Source: Bacillota bacterium
GTDB lineage: Bacteria > Bacillota > Sulfobacillia > JAIMAT01
Direction: 5' to 3'
DNA length: 41,439 nucleotides
NCBI GenBank assembly: GCA_023511835.1
Contig: JAIMAT010000011.1
Coordinates: forward strand, 1 to 41,439
The notes below the pieces were generated by a model. The model was not told the origin of the DNA and made no database searches. It saw only the letters and a program-made list of their open reading frames with translations. Shown one piece after another: positions 17,144 to 27,133 of the stretch; within the stretch, counting starts at the first letter, position 1, and each line of letters begins with the position of its first letter. The position numbers and the translations under genes were made by a program.

Positions 17144-17920
17144 CTAGAGGACCCCGCGGATCTCCCGGCTGAGGGCGGCGCAGTGCTCCCGCACCAGCCG
17201 GCCCACCTCCTCCACGCGCTCGTCGGGCATGCGGAAGAGGGGGGCGGCGACGCTGATGGCGCCCACCGGGCCGTCCGAGCCGAGGATGGCGCCGCCGACG
17301 CAGCGCAGGAACTCCTCGTGCTCGGCGTTGTCGATGGTGTAGCCGCGCTCCAGCGAGCGGGCAAGGTCCGCCTCCAGCTGCTCGCGGGAGGCCAGCGTGT
17401 TGGGCGTGTAGGCGCGCAGCTCCAGGCTCTCCAGGATCCTCTCGCGCTGCTTCGGCTCCATCCAGGCCAGGAGCGCCTTGCCCACGCCGGTGCAGTAGAG
17501 CGGGGCCGTCTTGCCGACCTTGGAGTACATGCGGATGCTGTGGACGCTCTCGTACTTCATGGCGTACATGACCTGGTTCCGGTGGAGTACGCCCAGGTGG
17601 ACGGTCTCCCCCGTCTCGCGCCAGATGGCCTCCAGGTGCGGCTTGGCCACGTCGCGCAGGCGGAGGGAGGCGAGGGCGCTGGCGCTCACCTCCAGCAGCC
17701 CCAGCCCCAGCTTGTAGTTGCCCGTGCCCTCGTCGACGGTCACCCACGACTCCTCGCGCAGCGTGGCCAAGAGCCGGTAGACGCTGGACTTGGGCAGGCC
17801 CAGGCTGCGCGCCAGCTCGGTCAGCGGGGCGCCCTCCTCCCGCTGGCCGAGGAGCTTGAGGAGCTGCACCGCCCGCAGGACGGAGCGGATCTGGGCGGCC
17901 TCCTGGTAGCTCGTCGCCAT
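17144..17920 (-). CDS. IclR-family transcriptional regulator of the sugar-acid operon
   Basis: A 258-residue IclR-type regulator. The N-terminal winged helix (about residues 10-70) includes LTELARSLGLPKSSVYRLLATL. The C-terminal effector domain (about 80-250) has typical segments such as GKALLAWM and SVAAPLFRM. IclR proteins bind small acids and either repress or activate the adjacent catabolic operon. This gene lies inside the operon it probably controls, between dgoD and the aldolase gene. The likely target is the pair of tandem dyads at 25911-25946 upstream of the first gene. The ATG at 17920 has GGGAGG about ten bases upstream. In E. coli the galactonate operon is run by a GntR protein, so an IclR regulator is a local variation. 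Confidence 0.93.
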   Translation of the reverse strand: MATSYQEAAQIRSVLRAVQLLKLLGQREEGAPLTELARSLGLPKSSVYRLLATLREESWVTVDEGTGNYKLGLGLLEVSASALASLRLRDVAKPHLEAIWRETGETVHLGVLHRNQVMYAMKYESVHSIRMYSKVGKTAPLYCTGVGKALLAWMEPKQRERILESLELRAYTPNTLASREQLEADLARSLERGYTIDNAEHEEFLRCVGGAILGSDGPVGAISVAAPLFRMPDERVEEVGRLVREHCAALSREIRGVL

Positions 17921-17970: not shown

Positions 17971-19119
17971 CTACCATTCCGCCACGCTCCCGTCGGGCAG
18001 GCGCCAGACCGGGTTGTGCCAGCGGAGCGCGGGCGAGGCGGAGGCGCGGATGGCTTCCTCGCGCAGCTCGATGCCCAGGCCGGGCCCCTCGGGGAGCGCG
18101 ATGGTGCCGTCCGTGGGGACGAGCCAGGACGCGTCGGCGAGGTAGGTCTCCAAATCTGCTTCCATATTGTAGTGGATGCCGAGGCTCTCCTCCTGGATGA
18201 AGGCGTTGGGCGTCGAGGCGTCCACCTGGAGCGCCGCGGCCAAAGCCACCGGCCCCAGCGGGCAGTGGGGCGCCACCGCCACGTCGTAGGCCTCGGCCAT
18301 GGCGGCGATCTTGCGCACCTCCCAGATGCCGCCGGCGTGCGAGACGTCGGGCTGGATGACGGCCACGCCGCCCGCCGCCAGCAGGTCGCGGAACTGCCAG
18401 CGCGTGTAGAGGCGCTCGCCGGTGGCCAGGGGGATGCGCGTCTTCCGCGCCAGCTCGGGCAGCGCGAAGGCGTGCTCGGGGAGGACCGGCTCCTCGACGA
18501 AGAGCGGCTCCAGCTCCTCCAGCGCCGCCAGCAGCCGCACGGCCTCGGCCTGGTGGACGCGGCCGTGGAAGTCGAGCGCCACGTCCACCTCCCAGCCCAC
18601 CGCCTCGCGCACGGCGCGGACACGGCGGACCACCTCGCGCACCAGCGCCGGCGACTCCAGGTAGGCGGTCTCCGCCGTGGCGTTCATCTTGATCGCCCGG
18701 TAGCCCATGGCCACGCGCTGGCGCGCCTGGTCGGCGGCCTCCTCGGGGCGGTCGCCGCCCACCCAGGCGTAAACCTTCATGCGCTCGCGGACGCGCCCGC
18801 CCAGGAGCTCGTAGACCGGCACGCCCAGGGCGCGCGCCTTGATGTCCCAGAGCGCCTGCTCGATGCCCGAGAGGGCGCTGGTCAGGACCGGCCCGCCGCG
18901 GTAGAAGCCGCCCCGGTAGAGGACCTGGAAGAGGTCCTCCACCCGGCGGGGGTCGCTGCCCAGCACGTACTCCATCAGCTCCTCCACCGCGCGCGCCACG
19001 GTGGAGGCACGCCCCTCCACGATGGGCTCGCCCCAGCCCACCAGGCCGTCGTCCGTCTCCAGCCTCAGGAAGAGCCACCGGGGCGGAACCGGGAAGAGCT
19101 CCGCGCGCGCCACCCGCAT
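17971..19119 (-). CDS. dgoD: D-galactonate dehydratase
   Basis: A 382-residue enolase-superfamily (mandelate racemase group) enzyme that dehydrates D-galactonate to 2-keto-3-deoxygalactonate. Key residues occur at the same numbers as I recall for E. coli DgoD: metal ligands Asp183, Glu209 and Glu235, catalytic His185 (DFHGRV) and His285 (APHCPLGP), and Glu310. The opening (PPRWLFLRLETDDGLVGWG) and the ending (WRLPDGSVAEW) closely follow DgoD. This is the most specific functional marker in the operon. It is followed by the IclR gene after about 50 bases and preceded by the kinase gene, 33 bases upstream. Some related dehydratases act on other sugar acids, so the exact isomer should be treated as likely, not proven. 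Confidence 0.95.
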   Translation of the reverse strand: MRVARAELFPVPPRWLFLRLETDDGLVGWGEPIVEGRASTVARAVEELMEYVLGSDPRRVEDLFQVLYRGGFYRGGPVLTSALSGIEQALWDIKARALGVPVYELLGGRVRERMKVYAWVGGDRPEEAADQARQRVAMGYRAIKMNATAETAYLESPALVREVVRRVRAVREAVGWEVDVALDFHGRVHQAEAVRLLAALEELEPLFVEEPVLPEHAFALPELARKTRIPLATGERLYTRWQFRDLLAAGGVAVIQPDVSHAGGIWEVRKIAAMAEAYDVAVAPHCPLGPVALAAALQVDASTPNAFIQEESLGIHYNMEADLETYLADASWLVPTDGTIALPEGPGLGIELREEAIRASASPALRWHNPVWRLPDGSVAEW

Positions 19120-19152: not shown

Positions 19153-20103
19153 TCAGCGCTGCAGCGCCGGGCCGCGCAGGAGCGCCTCCAGCTCCTCCCG
19201 GTAGGGCGCCCCCTCGAAGTCGCCGCCCGTGCGCACGGCCATGGCGCCGGCCAGGTGCCCCGCCTCCACCGCCTCGCGCCAGGAGGCGCCGCCCAGGCGC
19301 CAGGCGGTGACGGCGGCGGCGAAGGCGTCGCCCGCCCCGAAGGGGCTGACCGGCCGCCTGGCGTAGACCGGCTCCACCCGCTCCACCGCCCCGTCCGGCG
19401 TGCGGATCTCCGTCGGCCGGCGACCGCGCCGCAGGACGAGGACCGTCCCGTGGCGGGCGGCCAGCCCGGCCAGCTCCTCCACCTCCAGGCCCAGGGCGCG
19501 GACCTCCTCCTCGGTGGCGAAGAAGGTGGCCGCGCGCGGCAGGGCGTAGGCCAGGATCTCGCGCCAGCGCTCCGGCCCGCCCAGGCGCAGGCGGACGTTC
19601 AGGTCGAAGCTGCGCCACTCCAGCTGCCGCCCCTCCTCCAGGAGCTGGGCGGCCGCCTGGTCGAGGCCGTCCTGGCGGCAGAGGGAGATGCCCGTCACGT
19701 GGAAGCCGCGCGCCCCGACGAGCGCCTCGCGCAGGCGGGCGCCGCCGCGGTAGAAGCCGCCGGCGCTTCCTCTGCGCAGGTAGAGGACCGAGGGCTCGCC
19801 GTCGAGGCCGGGCAGGTCCTTCACCATCAGCCCCGTGGGCCGCTCGGGGTCGCTCTCCACCCCCGCCACGTCCACCCCCTCGGCCCGGGCCGCCCGGAGC
19901 ACCCGCCGGCCGAAGGGGTCGGCGCCCACCGCCCCCAGGAAGCGGGCGGGCACGCCCAGGCGGACCAGCCCGACGGCGTAGTTGAGCTCGGCGCCCACCA
20001 CGTGGAGCGCCAGGCTGGACGCGTCCTCCACGCGGGAGTCGCCGGCGTCCAGGGCGACCAGCGCCTCGCCGACCGTGACCACTGCTGCAACGGGTTCCGA
20101 CAC
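19153..20103 (-). CDS. PfkB-family 2-keto-3-deoxy sugar-acid kinase
   Basis: A 316-residue ribokinase-family (PfkB) kinase. The C-terminal signature FGAGDAFAA carries the catalytic base Asp259, and the KDG-kinase-type segment FDLNVRLRL is present. It most likely phosphorylates the product of the neighbouring dehydratase (2-keto-3-deoxygalactonate) to the substrate of the aldolase gene. E. coli uses an unrelated DgoK for this step, so the PfkB enzyme would be a non-orthologous replacement. The GTG start at 20103 has GGGGGAG five bases upstream. KDG rather than KDGal specificity cannot be excluded from sequence. Confidence 0.9.
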   Translation of the reverse strand: MSEPVAAVVTVGEALVALDAGDSRVEDASSLALHVVGAELNYAVGLVRLGVPARFLGAVGADPFGRRVLRAARAEGVDVAGVESDPERPTGLMVKDLPGLDGEPSVLYLRRGSAGGFYRGGARLREALVGARGFHVTGISLCRQDGLDQAAAQLLEEGRQLEWRSFDLNVRLRLGGPERWREILAYALPRAATFFATEEEVRALGLEVEELAGLAARHGTVLVLRRGRRPTEIRTPDGAVERVEPVYARRPVSPFGAGDAFAAAVTAWRLGGASWREAVEAGHLAGAMAVRTGGDFEGAPYREELEALLRGPALQR

Positions 20104-20192: not shown

Positions 20193-21404
20193 TCAGCGCG
20201 ATCCCTGGATCAGGTTGTCATAGACCCACTGGACGTCGAACTTGGCGTCGGCCACCGCCGAGACCGGGGTGCCCTTGTACTCGGCCAGCTTGTCCTTGGT
20301 GATGACCAGCGGCTGGAGCCAGAGCTGGTGGTTGACCTTCTCGCCCTTCAGGATGAACTGGGCGACGTAGAAGGCCAGCTCGCCCACCTGCGGGAAGGTG
20401 GAGTAGGACCAGGTGGAGTCGAAGTACTTGTCCCGGTTCTGCCACCACCACTGCAGGAAGGCGCCCCGGTTGTCGCCCACCATCAGCGGCACCGGCCGCC
20501 CGGCCGCCTGGAAGGCCTGGACCACGCCGTAGTTGCCGCCGTTGATGAGGACCGCGTCCACCTTGGGCAGGTTGGGCAAGAGGCCGGCCACCGCCGACTG
20601 CGCGGTGGCGTCGTCCCAGTTGCCGTAGACGGTGCCGACCACGTGGATGTCCGGGTACTGCTTGAGCACCTCCATCCAGCCCTGGTACTCGCCGTCGTCG
20701 ATGGAGGTGCCGGCCAGGCCGCGGACCACCAGCACGTTCCCCTTGCCGTTCAGCTGCTTGACGATGTAGTCGGCCAGCATCTTGCCGAAGTCGACGAAGT
20801 TCCAGTTGAGCACGTAGGCCTCGGGCGCGGTCACCGGCGTGTCGAAGTTGACCACGGGGATGCCCGCCTGGGTCGCCTTGGCGATGACCGCGTTGAGACC
20901 GGTGCTGGAGGAGGCGTCGACCAGGATCACGTCGACCTTCTTGAGGATCAGGTCGTTGATCTGGGCGATCTGCTGCGTCGTGCTGTTGCCGGCGTAGGTG
21001 TAGATGACCTTGCCGATCTGGTGGCACTGGATGGCCCGGTCGATGGCGCGGGTCATGTCATCCTGCATGGTCTTGCGCCAGCTGTTGCCCAGGAAGGCGA
21101 AGGAGACGCCCACCGTGGCGCTGGGCGCGTTGAAGCCGAAGGGGTTCTGGCACTCCCCGCCCGTGCTGCTGCCGCCGCTGCCGCTGCCGCCAGCGGAGCC
21201 GCCGCTGCTCCCCGAGCCGCCCGAGGCGGTGGAGGTGCCGGCGGAGGAGCCGGAGGTGGCGCTGGTGGCGCCGCCGCCGGTGCCGGAGCTGCTCTTCGTC
21301 GACGGGCTGCCGCCGCAGGCGGCGGTCAGGCCGACCAGCGCCAGCACCGTCAGGCCGGCCAGAAGCCGCCGCAAGAGCGCACCCTGCACGATTCGTCGCA
21401 ACAT
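20193..21404 (-). CDS. Sugar ABC transporter substrate-binding lipoprotein
   Basis: A 403-residue extracellular binding protein of the RbsB/Peripla_BP_4 group. The signal peptide ends in a lipobox (LTAAC, Cys30), so the mature protein is a lipoprotein. A Ser/Gly/Thr-rich linker of about 50 residues follows, probably a spacer from the membrane. The ligand-binding domain begins near TVGVSFAFLGNSWRK and includes DVILVDASSS and VPLMVGDNRGA. Binding proteins of this class usually carry neutral aldoses. The gene lies between the MBL hydrolase and the kinase genes, separated from its permeases by the hydrolase gene. There are 89 bases between it and the kinase. Confidence 0.93.
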   Translation of the reverse strand: MLRRIVQGALLRRLLAGLTVLALVGLTAACGGSPSTKSSSGTGGGATSATSGSSAGTSTASGGSGSSGGSAGGSGSGGSSTGGECQNPFGFNAPSATVGVSFAFLGNSWRKTMQDDMTRAIDRAIQCHQIGKVIYTYAGNSTTQQIAQINDLILKKVDVILVDASSSTGLNAVIAKATQAGIPVVNFDTPVTAPEAYVLNWNFVDFGKMLADYIVKQLNGKGNVLVVRGLAGTSIDDGEYQGWMEVLKQYPDIHVVGTVYGNWDDATAQSAVAGLLPNLPKVDAVLINGGNYGVVQAFQAAGRPVPLMVGDNRGAFLQWWWQNRDKYFDSTWSYSTFPQVGELAFYVAQFILKGEKVNHQLWLQPLVITKDKLAEYKGTPVSAVADAKFDVQWVYDNLIQGSR

Positions 21405-21446: not shown

Positions 21447-22322
21447 TCAAGCGTGGGACCGCTGGGCGCCGAAAGCTCCCGATCGCGTCGCTGCCTCCGC
21501 CGCTCTCCGCTCCCCCCCTTCGCCCGCCGCCTCCCCGTCGAAGGCGAGCAGCGTCCGCTCGCCGCGCACCGGCAGGAGGAGCGCGGGCCCCCCCTGCACG
21601 GCCACCGCGCGGGCCAGGCGGCCCACGTCGCCCTCGTTGCCGCGGAAGGCCTCGTAGTGCATGGGGACGAGCAGGCGGACGCCCGCCTCCAGGGCGAGCC
21701 GGGCGGCCTCCCGCTCGTCCATGTTGCCGACGATGCCGGCGGCCTCCCGGTAGGCGTCGCGGCCGTTGACCGGCAGCAGCGCCACGTCGGCGCCGAGGCC
21801 GGCCACCGCCTCGGCCAGGCCGGGGTAGACCAGGCCGTCGCCCGCGTGGAAGAGGCGGACGCCGCCCGCCTCGACCACGTAGCCCAGGAAGCGCGCCCGC
21901 TCCGGCGGGCCGCCGAAGTCGTAGGCGCCGGACCAGCCGGGGCCGCCCACCCCGTGCAGGGCGGGCAGCGCGCGGAGGCGGAAGCCCCCCACCTCCCGCC
22001 ACGCCCCCGGGGCGACGCCCTCCACCCGCTCGGCCGGCAGGCCGCCGGCCAGCGCCAGCGGGCGGACCGGCTCGGGCACCAGCACCCGCGGCCGGCCCCC
22101 CGCCTCCAGCAGCGCGCGCAGGAAGGGCAGGTCCAGGTGGTCGTCGTGCTCGTGCGTCGCCAGCACCACGTCCACGCCGGCCAGCCGCGCCGCCTCCACC
22201 GGGGGCGGGTAGAGCCGCCCGGGGTGGTCGGAGAGGAAGGGGTCGACGAGAAGCTTCCTCCCGCCCGGCTCCTCCAGGAGGAAGCCGGCCTGTCCCAGCC
22301 AGGTCAGCCACAGGAAACGCAT
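21447..22322 (-). CDS. UlaG-like metallo-beta-lactamase-fold hydrolase, possible sugar lactonase
   Basis: A 291-residue MBL-fold protein with the metal motif HEHDDH (His57, His59, Asp61, His62). Further likely ligands are in PALHGV, FHAGDG and LVPMHYEAF. It resembles UlaG, which opens L-ascorbate-6-phosphate lactone, and the broad UPF0173/YtnP-like MBL group. Within this operon a lactone-opening step is needed if the imported sugar is oxidised by the dehydrogenase at the operon's end. This gene is the only lactonase candidate seen. That role is inference. No signal peptide is present, so it acts in the cytoplasm. It begins 15 bases after the permease stop. Confidence 0.88.
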   Translation of the reverse strand: MRFLWLTWLGQAGFLLEEPGGRKLLVDPFLSDHPGRLYPPPVEAARLAGVDVVLATHEHDDHLDLPFLRALLEAGGRPRVLVPEPVRPLALAGGLPAERVEGVAPGAWREVGGFRLRALPALHGVGGPGWSGAYDFGGPPERARFLGYVVEAGGVRLFHAGDGLVYPGLAEAVAGLGADVALLPVNGRDAYREAAGIVGNMDEREAARLALEAGVRLLVPMHYEAFRGNEGDVGRLARAVAVQGGPALLLPVRGERTLLAFDGEAAGEGGERRAAEAATRSGAFGAQRSHA

Positions 22323-22337
22323 CGCCCGGACCCCCCT

Positions 22338-23291
22338 TCACCCCGCCCTGCGCAGCGCGAGGACGAGGATGATCATGGCGCCCTCCAGCACGTTGCGGGC
22401 GCCGGCGCTCAGCCCGGTGGCCTGCATGCCCGTCTCCAGGAAGCGGAGCAGCACCGCCCCGCCGAAGACGCCCAGCGCCGTGCTCCGCCCGCCGGCGATG
22501 AGCGAGCCGCCCAGCACCACGGCGGCGATGGAGCCCAGCTGGTAGGGGCTGCCCATGCCCAGGAAGGCGCCGCCCGCGTAGGCGCCCAGCAGCACCCCGC
22601 CCAGCGAGGCGGCCAGCGAGGAGAGGACGTACGAGAGGAAGCGGACCCGCCCCACCCGGATCCCCGTCAGCTCCGCCGCCGCCTCGCTCTGCCCGCCGGC
22701 CTCCAGGTGCCGCCCGTAGCGCGTGTGCTGGAGGAGCAGCCCGGCCAGCGCCGTCAGGAGGAGCGAGAGCCAGAGCATGTCCGGCAGGCCGAGGAGTGAG
22801 CCGTGCACCCAGCGCGCCAGCGCCGGGCTGGGCGCGCCGCCCTGGCCGACGCCGTAGTAGAGCTGGATGAGCGAGTCGAGCATGAAGCCGGTGGCCAGCG
22901 TGGCCACCATGGCCGGCAGGCGGAGGCCGACCACCAGCGCGCCGTTGACCGCCCCCAGCAGCAGCCCGGCGCCCAGCGCCGCCCCCACGCCGGCCAGCAT
23001 GGCCGCCCCGTCCCGCCCGTGCGCCACCGTCGCCTGGAGGATGGCGGCCAGCGTCACCATGCCCGAGACCGAGAGGTCGATGCCGCCCGCCCCGCCGGTG
23101 ATGACCAGCATCTGGCCCAGCCCCACCACCACCAGGAAGCCGGCCAGCCCCAGGTTGGTGACCAGCGCCTCCCAGCTGAGGCGCTGCTGCAGCACCGCCG
23201 TCGCCAGGTAGGCGACCGCGCCGCCCGCCAGCGACCAGATCCAGGCCCAGCCGCGCAGGCGGCGCGTCACGGCCGCGGCGCGCGCGCTCAT
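22338..23291 (-). CDS. Sugar ABC transporter permease (RbsC type)
   Basis: A 317-residue permease of the BPD_transp_2/RbsC family with about 8-10 hydrophobic segments. The conserved GGIDLSVSGMVTLAA segment near the first third is diagnostic (family GxxDLSVG). Its ATG overlaps the stop of the fused ATPase-permease gene by four bases, so translation is coupled. It presumably pairs with the permease domain of that protein to form a heterodimeric channel. The open frame continues far upstream, but that part is antisense-like sequence; the start at 23291 is set by the overlap and by the family N-terminus. Confidence 0.93.
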   Translation of the reverse strand: MSARAAAVTRRLRGWAWIWSLAGGAVAYLATAVLQQRLSWEALVTNLGLAGFLVVVGLGQMLVITGGAGGIDLSVSGMVTLAAILQATVAHGRDGAAMLAGVGAALGAGLLLGAVNGALVVGLRLPAMVATLATGFMLDSLIQLYYGVGQGGAPSPALARWVHGSLLGLPDMLWLSLLLTALAGLLLQHTRYGRHLEAGGQSEAAAELTGIRVGRVRFLSYVLSSLAASLGGVLLGAYAGGAFLGMGSPYQLGSIAAVVLGGSLIAGGRSTALGVFGGAVLLRFLETGMQATGLSAGARNVLEGAMIILVLALRRAG

Positions 23292-25879
23292 GCCTCCGCC
23301 TCCTTCCCCAGCGCCAGGCGGAGCGCCAGCACCGCCACCAGCGCCAGCCCCTCGATGAGCGAGGCGTAGTTGACGTTGACCGAGGCCAGGCCCAGGAGCG
23401 CCTCCAGCAGGCTGAAGAGGAGCGCGCCCAGGACGGCGCCCGCCGGCTCGACGCGCCCGCCGGAGAAGGAGCCGCCGCCCACGATGACGGCGGCGATGCC
23501 CAGGAGCGTCGCCGGCTGCGAGGCGAGCGCGTCGGCCGAGGAGGTGAGGGCGGTGACGGCGAGGCCGGCCAGCGTCGCCCAGAAGCCCGCCGCCGCATAG
23601 GCGGCCAGGCGCGCCGCCACCGCCGCCCGCACCGCACCCACGCGCAGCGCCAGGTGGTCGGCGTTCTCCCCCGCCGCGCGCAGGCGGACACCCAGGCGCG
23701 TGCGGAAGAGGAGGAGGGCGTTGGCCAGGGCGGCCAGCCCGCCCACCACCAGCGGCTCGGGGAGGAGCGGGAGGCTGGCGTTGCCCGCGGCCAGGAGCCA
23801 GGCGGGCGCGCTTCCTCCCGGCGTGGGCAGGATGACCAGGGCGACGCCCAGCCAGACGAAGGAAGCGCCCAGCGTCACCACGATGGCCGGCACGCGCCGG
23901 AGGGCGACCACCAGCCCCTGGGCGACGTAGAGGAGCCAGGCCAGGAGGAGCGCCGCCGCGCCCAGCGCCGGCCGCTGGACGAGCCAGGTGGCCGAGAGGG
24001 CGTTGACCAGGCCCATGTAGGCGCCCAGGCCGAGGTCGATGTCGCCCACGGCGATGACCATCAGCTCGCTGGCCGCGGCCAGGAGGACGGGCGTGAAGGA
24101 GCTGACGAGCACCGGGAGCCCTGCCGGCAGGAGCGCCGAGGGCTCCACCAGCGCGATGCCCGCCGTCACCAGCAGCACCGCCACCGCCGCCAGCAGCCAG
24201 CCCGCCTCGCCCAGCCGGAGCCGGAGCCGGCCGCCGCCCAGCGCCCCGGCCGCCGGGCGATCGCGCCCTTCCGCCCGGGCCGGCGCGCCGGTCCCGCCCG
24301 CGCCGCCCCCTTGGCCCGCGCCGGAGCCGGCGAAGGAGGCGGCGACGATGTTGGCGCGGGTGACCTCCCCGCCCGCCAGCTCGCGCACCAGCCGCCCCTC
24401 GCGCATGACGTAGACGCGGTCGCAGACCTCCATCTCGTCGTCGTCGCTGCTGGTCCAGACGACGGCCTTCCCCTGCTCCGCCAGGCCGCGCAGGAGGCGG
24501 TAGAACTCCTGCTTGGTTGCCGCGTCGACGCCGCGCGTGGGGTCGTCCAGGAGGAGGATCTCGGGCTCGGCCGCCAGCGCCCGGGCGATGAGCGCCTTCT
24601 GCTGGTTGCCGCCGCTCAGCGAGGTGACGGGCTCGTCGGGCTCGGCGGCGCGGATGGCGAGCCGCTCCGCCCACGCGCCGTAGAGCCGCCGCTCGCGCGC
24701 CGGCAGGACGAAGGGGCCCCAGGAAGCCCCGCCCAGGCTCCCCACGGTCACGTTGCGCAGGGTGCTCCAGAGGGCGAAGATCCCGCTCCCCCGCCGGTCC
24801 CCGCTGACCCAGGCGACCCGCCTCCCCCCGCCGGCGCCGCCGCGCTGGCGGGCGTGGCGGAGAAGCTCGCGCAGGAGCCGCGTCTGGCCTTGGCCGGCGA
24901 GGCCCGAGAGACCGACGATCTCGCCGGCGCGCACCTGCAGGGAGAGCTCGCCGGCCGCCGCGCCCTGCGGGCGGAAGTCGATGAGGAGCGGCCGCCCCTC
25001 CTCCCCCGCGCGCGAGGGGGCGGGGGAGGGCGCCGCCGGCTCGCCCGGCGCCGCTTCCTCCGCCGCCTCGGTGCGGCCGCCCATGGCCTCCACCAGGGCG
25101 GCACGGGTGAAGGCGTCGCGCGGGCCGCGCCGGACCACCTCGCCGTCGCGCAGGACCGTGATCTCGTCGCAGAAGGCGAAGACCTCGTCGAGCCGGTGGG
25201 TGATGAGGACGACGCCGACGCCGCGGTCGCGGAGGCGCTCCATGAGGCGGCCGAGCCGCTCCACCTCCTCCCGCCCCAGGGCGGCCGTGGGCTCGTCCAG
25301 GACGAGGAGGCGGAGGCCGGGCCGGCTGGCGGCCAGGGCGATCTCCAGCATCTGGCGCCGGGCCAGCGTCAGCCGCTCGACGCGCGCCTCGGGCGCGATG
25401 CCGCTGCCGGGGAAGACCTCCTCCAGGGCGGAGGCCGCGGCGCGCCGGGCGGCGGCCCGCCAGCCGCCGGCCTCGCGGGGCGCGCGTTCTGCGCCCGGGC
25501 CGGCCGGCTCCAGTGCGAAGTGCTCGTAGACGCGGAGGTTGGGGAAGACGGGGACTTCCTGGTGCGCGATGGCGATGCCCCAGGCGCGGGCCTTGCGGGC
25601 GTCCCAGGCGGCGGCCGGGAAGGTGCGGCCGTCGACCGCCACTTGCCCGCTGTCGGCGGGCAGCTCGCCGGTGAGGATGCGCATGAGCGTCGTCTTGCCC
25701 GCGCCGTTGGCGCCGAGCAGGCCGTGGACCCGCCCCGCGCGCAGCGCCAGGTCGACGCCGCGCAGGACCCGGTGGCCCCCGAAGCGCTTCTCGACGCCGC
25801 GCACCTCGACGAGGAGCTCGTTCAGGAGCTCGCCGGGCGCGGCCGTCCCCGCGGCTGCCGGCCCCTGCCGATCGTTCAC
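23288..25879 (-). CDS. Fused sugar ABC transporter protein: two ATPase domains plus permease
   Basis: An 863-residue single protein joining an RbsA-type double ATPase to an RbsC-type permease. NBD1 has Walker A GANGAGKT (about 57-64) and Walker B LLVLDEPTAAL. NBD2 (about 300-520) has the usual degenerate P-loop of RbsA second domains, a perfect signature LSGGNQQK, and LLLDDPTRGVD, where the family's DEPTRGVD Glu is Asp. A Gly/Ala-rich linker (about 530-565) leads into a membrane domain with GDIDLGLGAYMGL, the permease marker. RbsA and RbsC are normally separate chains. The GTG at 25879 is chosen because GGGAGGG lies seven bases upstream. It is the first gene of the nine-gene operon, downstream of a promoter and two dyads. 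Confidence 0.93.
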   Translation of the reverse strand: MNDRQGPAAAGTAAPGELLNELLVEVRGVEKRFGGHRVLRGVDLALRAGRVHGLLGANGAGKTTLMRILTGELPADSGQVAVDGRTFPAAAWDARKARAWGIAIAHQEVPVFPNLRVYEHFALEPAGPGAERAPREAGGWRAAARRAAASALEEVFPGSGIAPEARVERLTLARRQMLEIALAASRPGLRLLVLDEPTAALGREEVERLGRLMERLRDRGVGVVLITHRLDEVFAFCDEITVLRDGEVVRRGPRDAFTRAALVEAMGGRTEAAEEAAPGEPAAPSPAPSRAGEEGRPLLIDFRPQGAAAGELSLQVRAGEIVGLSGLAGQGQTRLLRELLRHARQRGGAGGGRRVAWVSGDRRGSGIFALWSTLRNVTVGSLGGASWGPFVLPARERRLYGAWAERLAIRAAEPDEPVTSLSGGNQQKALIARALAAEPEILLLDDPTRGVDAATKQEFYRLLRGLAEQGKAVVWTSSDDDEMEVCDRVYVMREGRLVRELAGGEVTRANIVAASFAGSGAGQGGGAGGTGAPARAEGRDRPAAGALGGGRLRLRLGEAGWLLAAVAVLLVTAGIALVEPSALLPAGLPVLVSSFTPVLLAAASELMVIAVGDIDLGLGAYMGLVNALSATWLVQRPALGAAALLLAWLLYVAQGLVVALRRVPAIVVTLGASFVWLGVALVILPTPGGSAPAWLLAAGNASLPLLPEPLVVGGLAALANALLLFRTRLGVRLRAAGENADHLALRVGAVRAAVAARLAAYAAAGFWATLAGLAVTALTSSADALASQPATLLGIAAVIVGGGSFSGGRVEPAGAVLGALLFSLLEALLGLASVNVNYASLIEGLALVAVLALRLALGKEAEA

Positions 25880-25910
25880 GGACTTCCCTCCCGGGATGCA
25901 GGCCGGTGGT

Positions 25911-25946
25911 GTTCCGTATAGCAGAACTCTGTTCTGTGTGCTGAAC
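25911..25946. promoter_or_regulatory. Tandem operator dyads, candidate IclR binding sites
   Basis: Two similar dyads lie side by side: GTTCCGTATAGCAGAAC (25911-25927) and GTTCTGTGTGCTGAAC (25931-25946). Both have arms of the form GTTCnG / CnGAAC. Their centres are about 20 bases apart, two helical turns, so two dimers could bind on one DNA face. IclR proteins often recognise TTCCG...CGGAA-like palindromes. The sites cover the start of the predicted transcript of the sugar-acid operon, suggesting repression by the operon's own IclR protein. Confidence 0.6.
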
Positions 25947-25953
25947 TGCGCAC

Positions 25954-25982
25954 ATGCTAACATCCGGCACCACAGGGTGCAA
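25954..25982 (-). promoter_or_regulatory. Promoter candidate of the sugar-acid operon
   Basis: On the minus strand TTGCAC (25982-25977), 17 bases and TAGCAT (25959-25954) form a sigma-A-like pair. TG lies one base before the -10, giving an extended -10 that can offset the weak -35. Transcription would start near 25947, right at the tandem dyads and about 70 bases before the GTG of the first gene. Confidence 0.45.
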
Positions 25983-26370
25983 GAAGGCCGGATGCGGAGC
26001 GGCGCCTACGGGGGGCGGGATCTTCCTCCAGGCTTCACGGCCTGCGAAGGCAATCGGGCCCGGGTCACTCCCCCTCCACCGGCGAGGGACGTCGTCGCCA
26101 GGAGGAGGCGGGCCTCCGCGGCCCGGCCATGGCAGGCCGACGCCCCGAGCTGTGCGGGCAGAGCGGACCGGGCGAAAGGAGAAGTAGTGTGCAGATCGAA
26201 ACTCTTTGTCACATAGCGGATCCTCGGTGGTTGGCCTGTTTTGCGGATATCCGTTGTTTTTATGTCGCGCTCCTGGACATTCGGGCGCCGCACGGATCCA
26301 TTCAACCGGAAAGGAGGTCGGTTCGGGCAACGGGCGGGACCGGTCGGCGCCCCGCTGGAGGGAGAACTCC
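25983..26370. other. Intergenic region upstream of the SDR gene
   Basis: This stretch separates the minus-strand sugar operon promoter from the plus-strand dehydrogenase. It is less GC-rich around 26170-26290. It holds a 10-bp palindrome CGGATATCCG (26244-26253) and a perfect AAGGAGGT (26311-26318) with no start codon at usable distance. The SDR's own GGAGGGAG lies at 26358-26365. No confident gene or promoter was identified. Confidence 0.4.
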
Positions 26371-27133
26371 ATGGGCCAGAGACTGGGCGGTAAAGTGGCA
26401 CTCGATCACCGGGGCAGCGAGCGGCATCGGTGCGGCGACGGCTCGTCTCTTCGCGCGCGAGGGAGCCAAGGTCGTCGTGGCCGACGTGATGGTGGAGCAG
26501 GGCGAGAAGGTCGTCTCCGAGATCCGGTCGGACGGGGGTGAAGCCACTTTCGTCCGCTGCGACGTGACGAACCCCGACGACGTCAAGGCCGCCATCGATC
26601 TCGCCGTTCGAACCTACGGCCGCCTGGATGTCCTGCACAACAACGCGGGGATCGAAGGGCCGCAGGCGGAGACCGCCAACTACCCGGAGTCCGACTTCGA
26701 ACGCGTGATCAACGTCAACCTGAAGGGTGTCTACTTCGGTCTCAAGTACGGAGTTCAGGCCATGCTGGCAAACGGTGGCGGGTCGATCATCAACACCGCA
26801 TCCGTGGCCGGCCTGGTCGGCTTCCCCGGGCTTCTGGCCTATAACGCCTCCAAAGGCGCCGTGATCCAGATGACCCGGACGGCGGCCCTTGAATACGCCA
26901 AGCAGGGGATACGGATCAATGCGATCGCGCCCGGGGTGATCGAAACCCCGATGGTCCAGCGCCTCCTCGCCGTTCAACCGGAGGCCTATGACTCCTTCCT
27001 CGCCCTGGAACCGATCGGTCGCTTCGCAACGCCGGAGGAGGTCGCCCAGGTGGCACTCTTTCTGGCGTCGGACGACTCCTCATTCGTGACGGGGTCGGTC
27101 AGCATCGTCGACGGCGGCCTGACCGCCATGTAA
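26371..27133 (+). pseudogene. Short-chain dehydrogenase/reductase, broken by a 1-base frameshift
   Basis: The start ATG at 26371, with GGAGGGAG nine bases upstream, reads MGQRLGGKVAL. The reading then needs to jump one base to continue as ITGAASGIGAATARLF, the glycine-rich NAD(P)-binding motif. Skipping the G at 26404 (CTC-G-ATC) restores one continuous protein of about 253 residues. The rest is intact: NNAG, the catalytic Ser in NTASVAG, YNASK, and a C-terminal SIVDGGLTAM. As given, translation from the ATG would end early, so the gene is inactive, or the extra base is a sequencing error. The fold is that of FabG/glucose-dehydrogenase-like SDRs; the substrate is unknown. Codon use is less GC-biased than in flanking genes. 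Confidence 0.85.

Follow-up and report, generated by a model that had tools for sequence, protein, structure and literature searches.

A probable CUT2 importer with its double ATPase and one of two permeases joined in a single gene, a recurrent and little noted variant

Importers of the CUT2 (RbsABC-type) group, among them RbsABC of Escherichia coli and Bacillus subtilis, MglABC, AraFGH, LsrABCD and NupNOPQ, have a double-NBD ATPase with one degenerate site. RbsABC and the other CUT2 importers also share an RbsC-type permease and a Peripla_BP_4-type binding protein with the locus described here, whereas their ATPase and permease are separate chains. The normal gene order is rbsA-rbsC, and LsrCD and NupPQ comprise two permeases each, as found here. 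In ABC dimers, the Walker motifs of NBD2 pair with the signature of NBD1. For B. subtilis RbsA and for NupO, which belongs to the CUT2 importer NupNOPQ, one competent and one degenerate ATP site have been described (PMC11466899). In the open-access literature, we found no paper describing an RbsA-RbsC fusion.

The window, a stretch of 41,439 nucleotides from a Bacillota bacterium (contig JAIMAT010000011.1), very probably encodes a CUT2 importer in which the genes for the double ATPase and for the first of two permeases are joined into one. The fused gene (23288-25879, minus strand, 863 aa) starts with GTG, about 6 nt downstream of a Shine-Dalgarno-like GGGAGGG, and ends with TGA. As the earlier note had described, a single uninterrupted frame of 863 codons carries NBD1 (residues ~22-275, 25055..25816), NBD2 (residues ~295-516, 24332..24997), a Gly/Ala-rich linker (residues ~520-554, 24218..24322) and a complete permease domain (residues ~560-860, 23300..24202), all on the minus strand. 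The NBDs are supported by a motif alignment of 154 RbsA-type ATPases, and the permease domain by its BPD_transp_2 match and a permease tree. In Pfam, the fused protein has two matches to ABC_tran and one to BPD_transp_2 (residues 593-851, 1e-13). The overlap pointed out before is also there: within the ATGA at 23288-23291 the fused gene ends and a free permease gene (22338-23291, minus strand, 317 aa, BPD_transp_2 3e-27) begins. A scan of the window for Rfam families and tRNA found none.

The locus combines a double-NBD RbsA-type ATPase, a BPD_transp_2 permease and a Peripla_BP_4 binding protein, as expected for CUT2, and departs from the separate ATPase and permease chains usual in the group by its single frame. 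In the ATPase tree, fused and unfused members are intermixed, which makes separate chains a usual rather than a defining trait of CUT2. The best NCBIfam matches of the ATPase were LsrA, AraG, XylG and YtfR, all below their equivalog cut-offs. AlphaFold2 (73 rows) predicted the fused chain with a mean pLDDT of 87 and a pTM of 0.83. Both NBDs and the permease domain were confidently folded and mainly the linker was disordered, with pLDDT <50 at residues 520-554, as for a flexible connection of ~40 residues. Foldseek and VIA-align rows covered mainly the NBDs, and a profile search of solved structures for a CUT2 permease returned none at E 0.01. Therefore, a partly single-chain CUT2 importer could be a useful structural target.

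The two ATP sites differ in their motifs. NBD1 has an intact Walker A (GANGAGKTT), the DE of Walker B and the H-loop His, together with a divergent signature, LTLARRQ. NBD2 has an intact signature (LSGGNQQK), a Walker A without Lys (GLAGQGQTR), a D in place of the catalytic E, and no H-loop His. Since the Walker motifs of NBD2 pair with the NBD1 signature LTLARRQ, all these departures fall in one ATP site, and the fused protein has the pattern of one competent and one degenerate site that is found in CUT2. The same division runs through the 154 aligned ATPases. In NBD1, the Walker A K is present in 153/154, the catalytic E in 154/154 and the H-loop H in 153/154. In NBD2, the Walker A lysine position has K in 6 rows, against 105 with R and 35 with Q, the H-loop columns lack His in all but one row, and LSGGN is kept.

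The earlier note had singled out DDPTRGVD in NBD2 as a deviation from DEPTRGVD. The motif is present (residues 445-452), with D446 (24542..24544, minus strand) placed by motif alignment at the catalytic-Glu position of the degenerate site, and it is not peculiar to this protein: of the 154 RbsA-type ATPases, 118 have E at the position and 24 have D. Among the loci that came from genome searches alone, E was found in 49/72 and D in 15/72; the remaining loci were fetched by patterns including DDPTRGVD, which biases the share of D among them. The closest fused relatives with the motif read, those of the genomes G147 and G049, Paraburkholderia and Agrobacterium, also have D. As judged from the alignment, D446 is not an anomaly and is common to close relatives.

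Furthermore, the tethered and the free permease belong to two separate lineages, A and B, divided by a branch with 97% SH-aLRT. In the clade of the window protein, the tethered domain always matches A and the free gene matches B. The asymmetric heterodimer proposed in the earlier note is thus borne out insofar as a distinct free permease is present. The fusion is not its cause, because unfused relatives (L082, L084, L087, L090, L101 and L164) already have the order ATPase, permease A, permease B, which makes an asymmetric channel independent of the fusion. Of the fused loci flanked by at least 3 kb on each side, all (13/13) have exactly one extra permease gene nearby; of the unfused loci with the same flanks, 41/61 have one permease and 20/61 have two. 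By chance, the pattern would have a probability of about 0.004, or (20/61)^5, on the assumption of about five independent fusing lineages and with a phylogenetically uneven sampling. The two-permease pattern among the sampled fused loci is a lead, and may be new. The free permease also lies within a 1344-codon open frame (22338-26372, minus strand), which upstream of this gene is mostly out of the coding frame; its open length does not speak for a gene, because long spurious open reading frames are common at such G+C.

The earlier note had asked for a search for the NBD-NBD-TMD architecture, and had considered that relatives might always have two separate genes. Unbroken examples were found in independent genomes, including complete plasmid sequences, and the fused relatives span several phyla, so it does not hold that every relative has the two genes apart. 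Among 154 genomes of the class, the best unbroken full-length matches came from G147 (43%) and G049 (42%), followed by G095 (38%), which is more distant. In G147 and G049, the free permease after the fused gene is 40% and 44% identical to that of the window, and the binding proteins are 40-48% identical. In the wider phylum (398 genomes, two candidates scored per genome), no unbroken fusion besides that of the window was found at E <= 1e-70. The congeners G001 and G002 gave matches over the ATPase length only, so the fused gene does not occur throughout the genus.

Annotated fused orthologs in a plasmid collection are UIY26807.1 (Rhizobium leguminosarum pRL1), WP_051374217.1 (Paraburkholderia sprentiae) and WP_080855319.1 (Agrobacterium leguminum), which are 37-40% identical to the window protein over the ATPase part. 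Like the window, all three have the order NBD-NBD-permease A, a 4-bp overlap with the gene of permease B, and an adjoining binding protein; their catabolic neighbours are different (SMP-30/gluconolactonase, other hydrolases). Public records name each of them “ATP-binding cassette domain-containing protein”, and since they are labeled only as ABC-domain proteins, automated annotation hides the permease half. A further fused protein, from the same collection, is encoded on a Sinorhizobium meliloti pSymA. Azospirillum oryzae looked fused in tblastn and was discarded, as there is a stop between its genes. A separate fused group with a rhamnose-type binding protein includes Mesorhizobium WP_258599523.1 and Vibrio nigripulchritudo WP_281832989.1. 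These two share the domain order and the overlapping free permease with the window, whereas their NBD2 has DEPTQGID instead of DDPTRGVD. More fusions were detected in metagenome-assembled genomes of Hydrogenedentota, Desulfocapsa, a betaproteobacterium and Propionibacteriaceae, and also in Mesorhizobium sp. CU3. The genome of the latter (G538, with locus L117) contains two different unbroken fusions, at C51:194600-197002 and C24:93099-95543.

Mapped on a tree of 161 ATPases, the state “fused” requires seven changes, at least four of which are forced by starred branches. The clade that contains the window protein has 99% support; seven of its 13 rows are fused and six unfused, and it also includes UIY26807.1, WP_051374217.1 and WP_080855319.1. 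For a single fusion event within this clade, the tree of the ATPase and both permeases gave a p-AU of 0.348, a value that neither rejects nor establishes it; this tree carries a long-branch warning, and the window protein itself sits on a long branch. The separate place of WP_258599523.1 and WP_281832989.1 in the ATPase tree marks an independent fusion. Separate fusions occurred in the Mesorhizobium/Vibrio/Propionibacteriaceae group, in Hydrogenedentota, in Desulfocapsa and in a betaproteobacterium.

Could the fusion be a sequencing or assembly artefact, in which a lost stop or a frameshift merged adjacent genes? At a G+C of 77%, chance stops are rare, about one in 140 codons (model stop rate 0.007 per codon), and a stretch of 60 codons is stop-free with a probability of 0.65, so that the open frame alone is weak evidence; in many relatives, in addition, both genes share a frame and a single stop separates them. 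However, codons 490-570 of the fused gene have zero stops in all three sense frames, and the stretch between codon 505 and codon 566, the latter inside TM1 (the first membrane helix), is free of ATG, GTG and TTG in every frame. GC3 in the fused-gene frame is 0.93-1.0 and is kept across the linker. Together with the same fusion in independent genomes, complete plasmid sequences included, this makes an artefact extremely improbable. On the sequence evidence, the fused NBD-NBD-TMD gene is real and unbroken, and is neither an artefact nor unique.

A real gene might still be non-functional in transport, with an ATPase inactivated by DDPTRGVD and LTLARRQ in a decaying operon. Two non-consensus motifs and the long branch of the window protein would fit such a decay, but both motifs lie in the site that is degenerate family-wide, and the competent site (Walker A K, DE, H, LSGGN) is intact. 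Frame breaks are absent, and the D is common to intact orthologs, which leaves a degraded gene hardly more credible than an artefact. Alternatively, two fused chains could form a homodimer with four NBDs and work without permease B. Fused exporters do homodimerise, and the Desulfocapsa fused gene (L093, 1188-3605) shows no second permease, on a contig that ends ~1.1 kb upstream. Against this stand the one further permease gene at 13/13 fused loci with 3 kb flanks, which in the window is translationally overlapped, and the fact that one chain already holds the needed NBD pair. We consider the homodimer very unlikely.

We thus return to a CUT2 importer with one tethered and one free permease. 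The fused system would be active in transport. Its complex would be built from a single fused chain (NBD1-NBD2-permease A) and one free permease B, together with the lipid-anchored binding protein, a stoichiometry that we infer. ATP would be hydrolysed at the one competent site, formed by the Walker motifs of NBD1 and the LSGGN signature of NBD2, and the second site (NBD2 Walker motifs and NBD1 LTLARRQ) would be degenerate and mainly structural. Through the flexible linker, ATPase and permease A would be supplied 1:1 and would stay together, with the transport chemistry unchanged.

Among transporters of a well-known kind, the fused protein is a minor variant, and its fusion is recurrent and little noted. 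It shows that a single chain can combine a CUT2 ATPase with one permease, with a second, different permease as the channel partner in the sampled loci. By the fusion, the ratio of subunits would be genetically fixed, and so, possibly, would the left-right arrangement. We would tentatively go one step further, to a reading that we hold to be possible and rather doubtful: that the fusion of a CUT2 ATPase with a permease arose several times, solely in two-permease systems, and fixes the pairing of permease and ATP site. A suggested reason for such a confinement is the 1:2 ATPase:permease stoichiometry: one ATPase chain needs two permeases, so that tethering one of them leaves a distinct free partner. 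If this is true, tethering one defined permease to the asymmetric ATPase pair fixes which permease faces which ATP site, and offers a single-chain handle for asking whether the degenerate and the competent sites drive different halves of the channel.

The surrounding operon hints at the substrate. From a promoter region near 25900, the order is fused gene, permease B, a hydrolase with a metallo-beta-lactamase (MBL) fold, a Peripla_BP_4 lipoprotein, a PfkB kinase, a galactonate dehydratase and an IclR-type regulator, all on the minus strand. The hydrolase (21447..22322, Lactamase_B_2 and Lactamase_B_3) is lactonase-like by a weak UlaG match (PRK11709, 34 bits, below its cut-off). An MBL gene follows permease B in Agrobacterium too, and was dismissed as a shared component, the two proteins being without useful similarity. 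The substrate-binding protein (20193..21404, Peripla_BP_4 1.3e-53) has a lipoprotein-like N terminus, and its PDB relative is 4pe6 (E 8e-53). The PfkB sugar kinase (19153..20103) is nearest to 2-keto-3-deoxygluconate/galactonate kinases, at 128 bits versus an equivalog cut-off of 400; the galactonate dehydratase (17971..19119) is a DgoD equivalog (NF010624, 594 bits, cut-off 311). Among the genes examined beside the kinase, no aldolase was identified.

Because a galactonate dehydratase and a 2-keto-3-deoxy-sugar-acid-kinase-like gene are in the operon, the substrate could be an aldonate or aldonolactone, a reading from gene neighbourhood that we regard as evenly balanced. The imported compound would then be handed to the galactonate dehydratase and the 2-keto-3-deoxy-sugar-acid kinase. 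Among the neighbours of fused relatives are SMP-30/gluconolactonase genes or enolase-superfamily enzymes. The IclR-type regulator sequence (~17144-17905, minus strand) lies downstream of the galactonate dehydratase, inside a longer frame of 644 aa. A palindrome at 25922-25936, CAGAACTCTGTTCTG, has perfect 6-bp arms and a 3-bp spacer. It lies ~43 nt upstream of the fused gene's GTG and is a candidate for the operator of the operon's IclR-type regulator.
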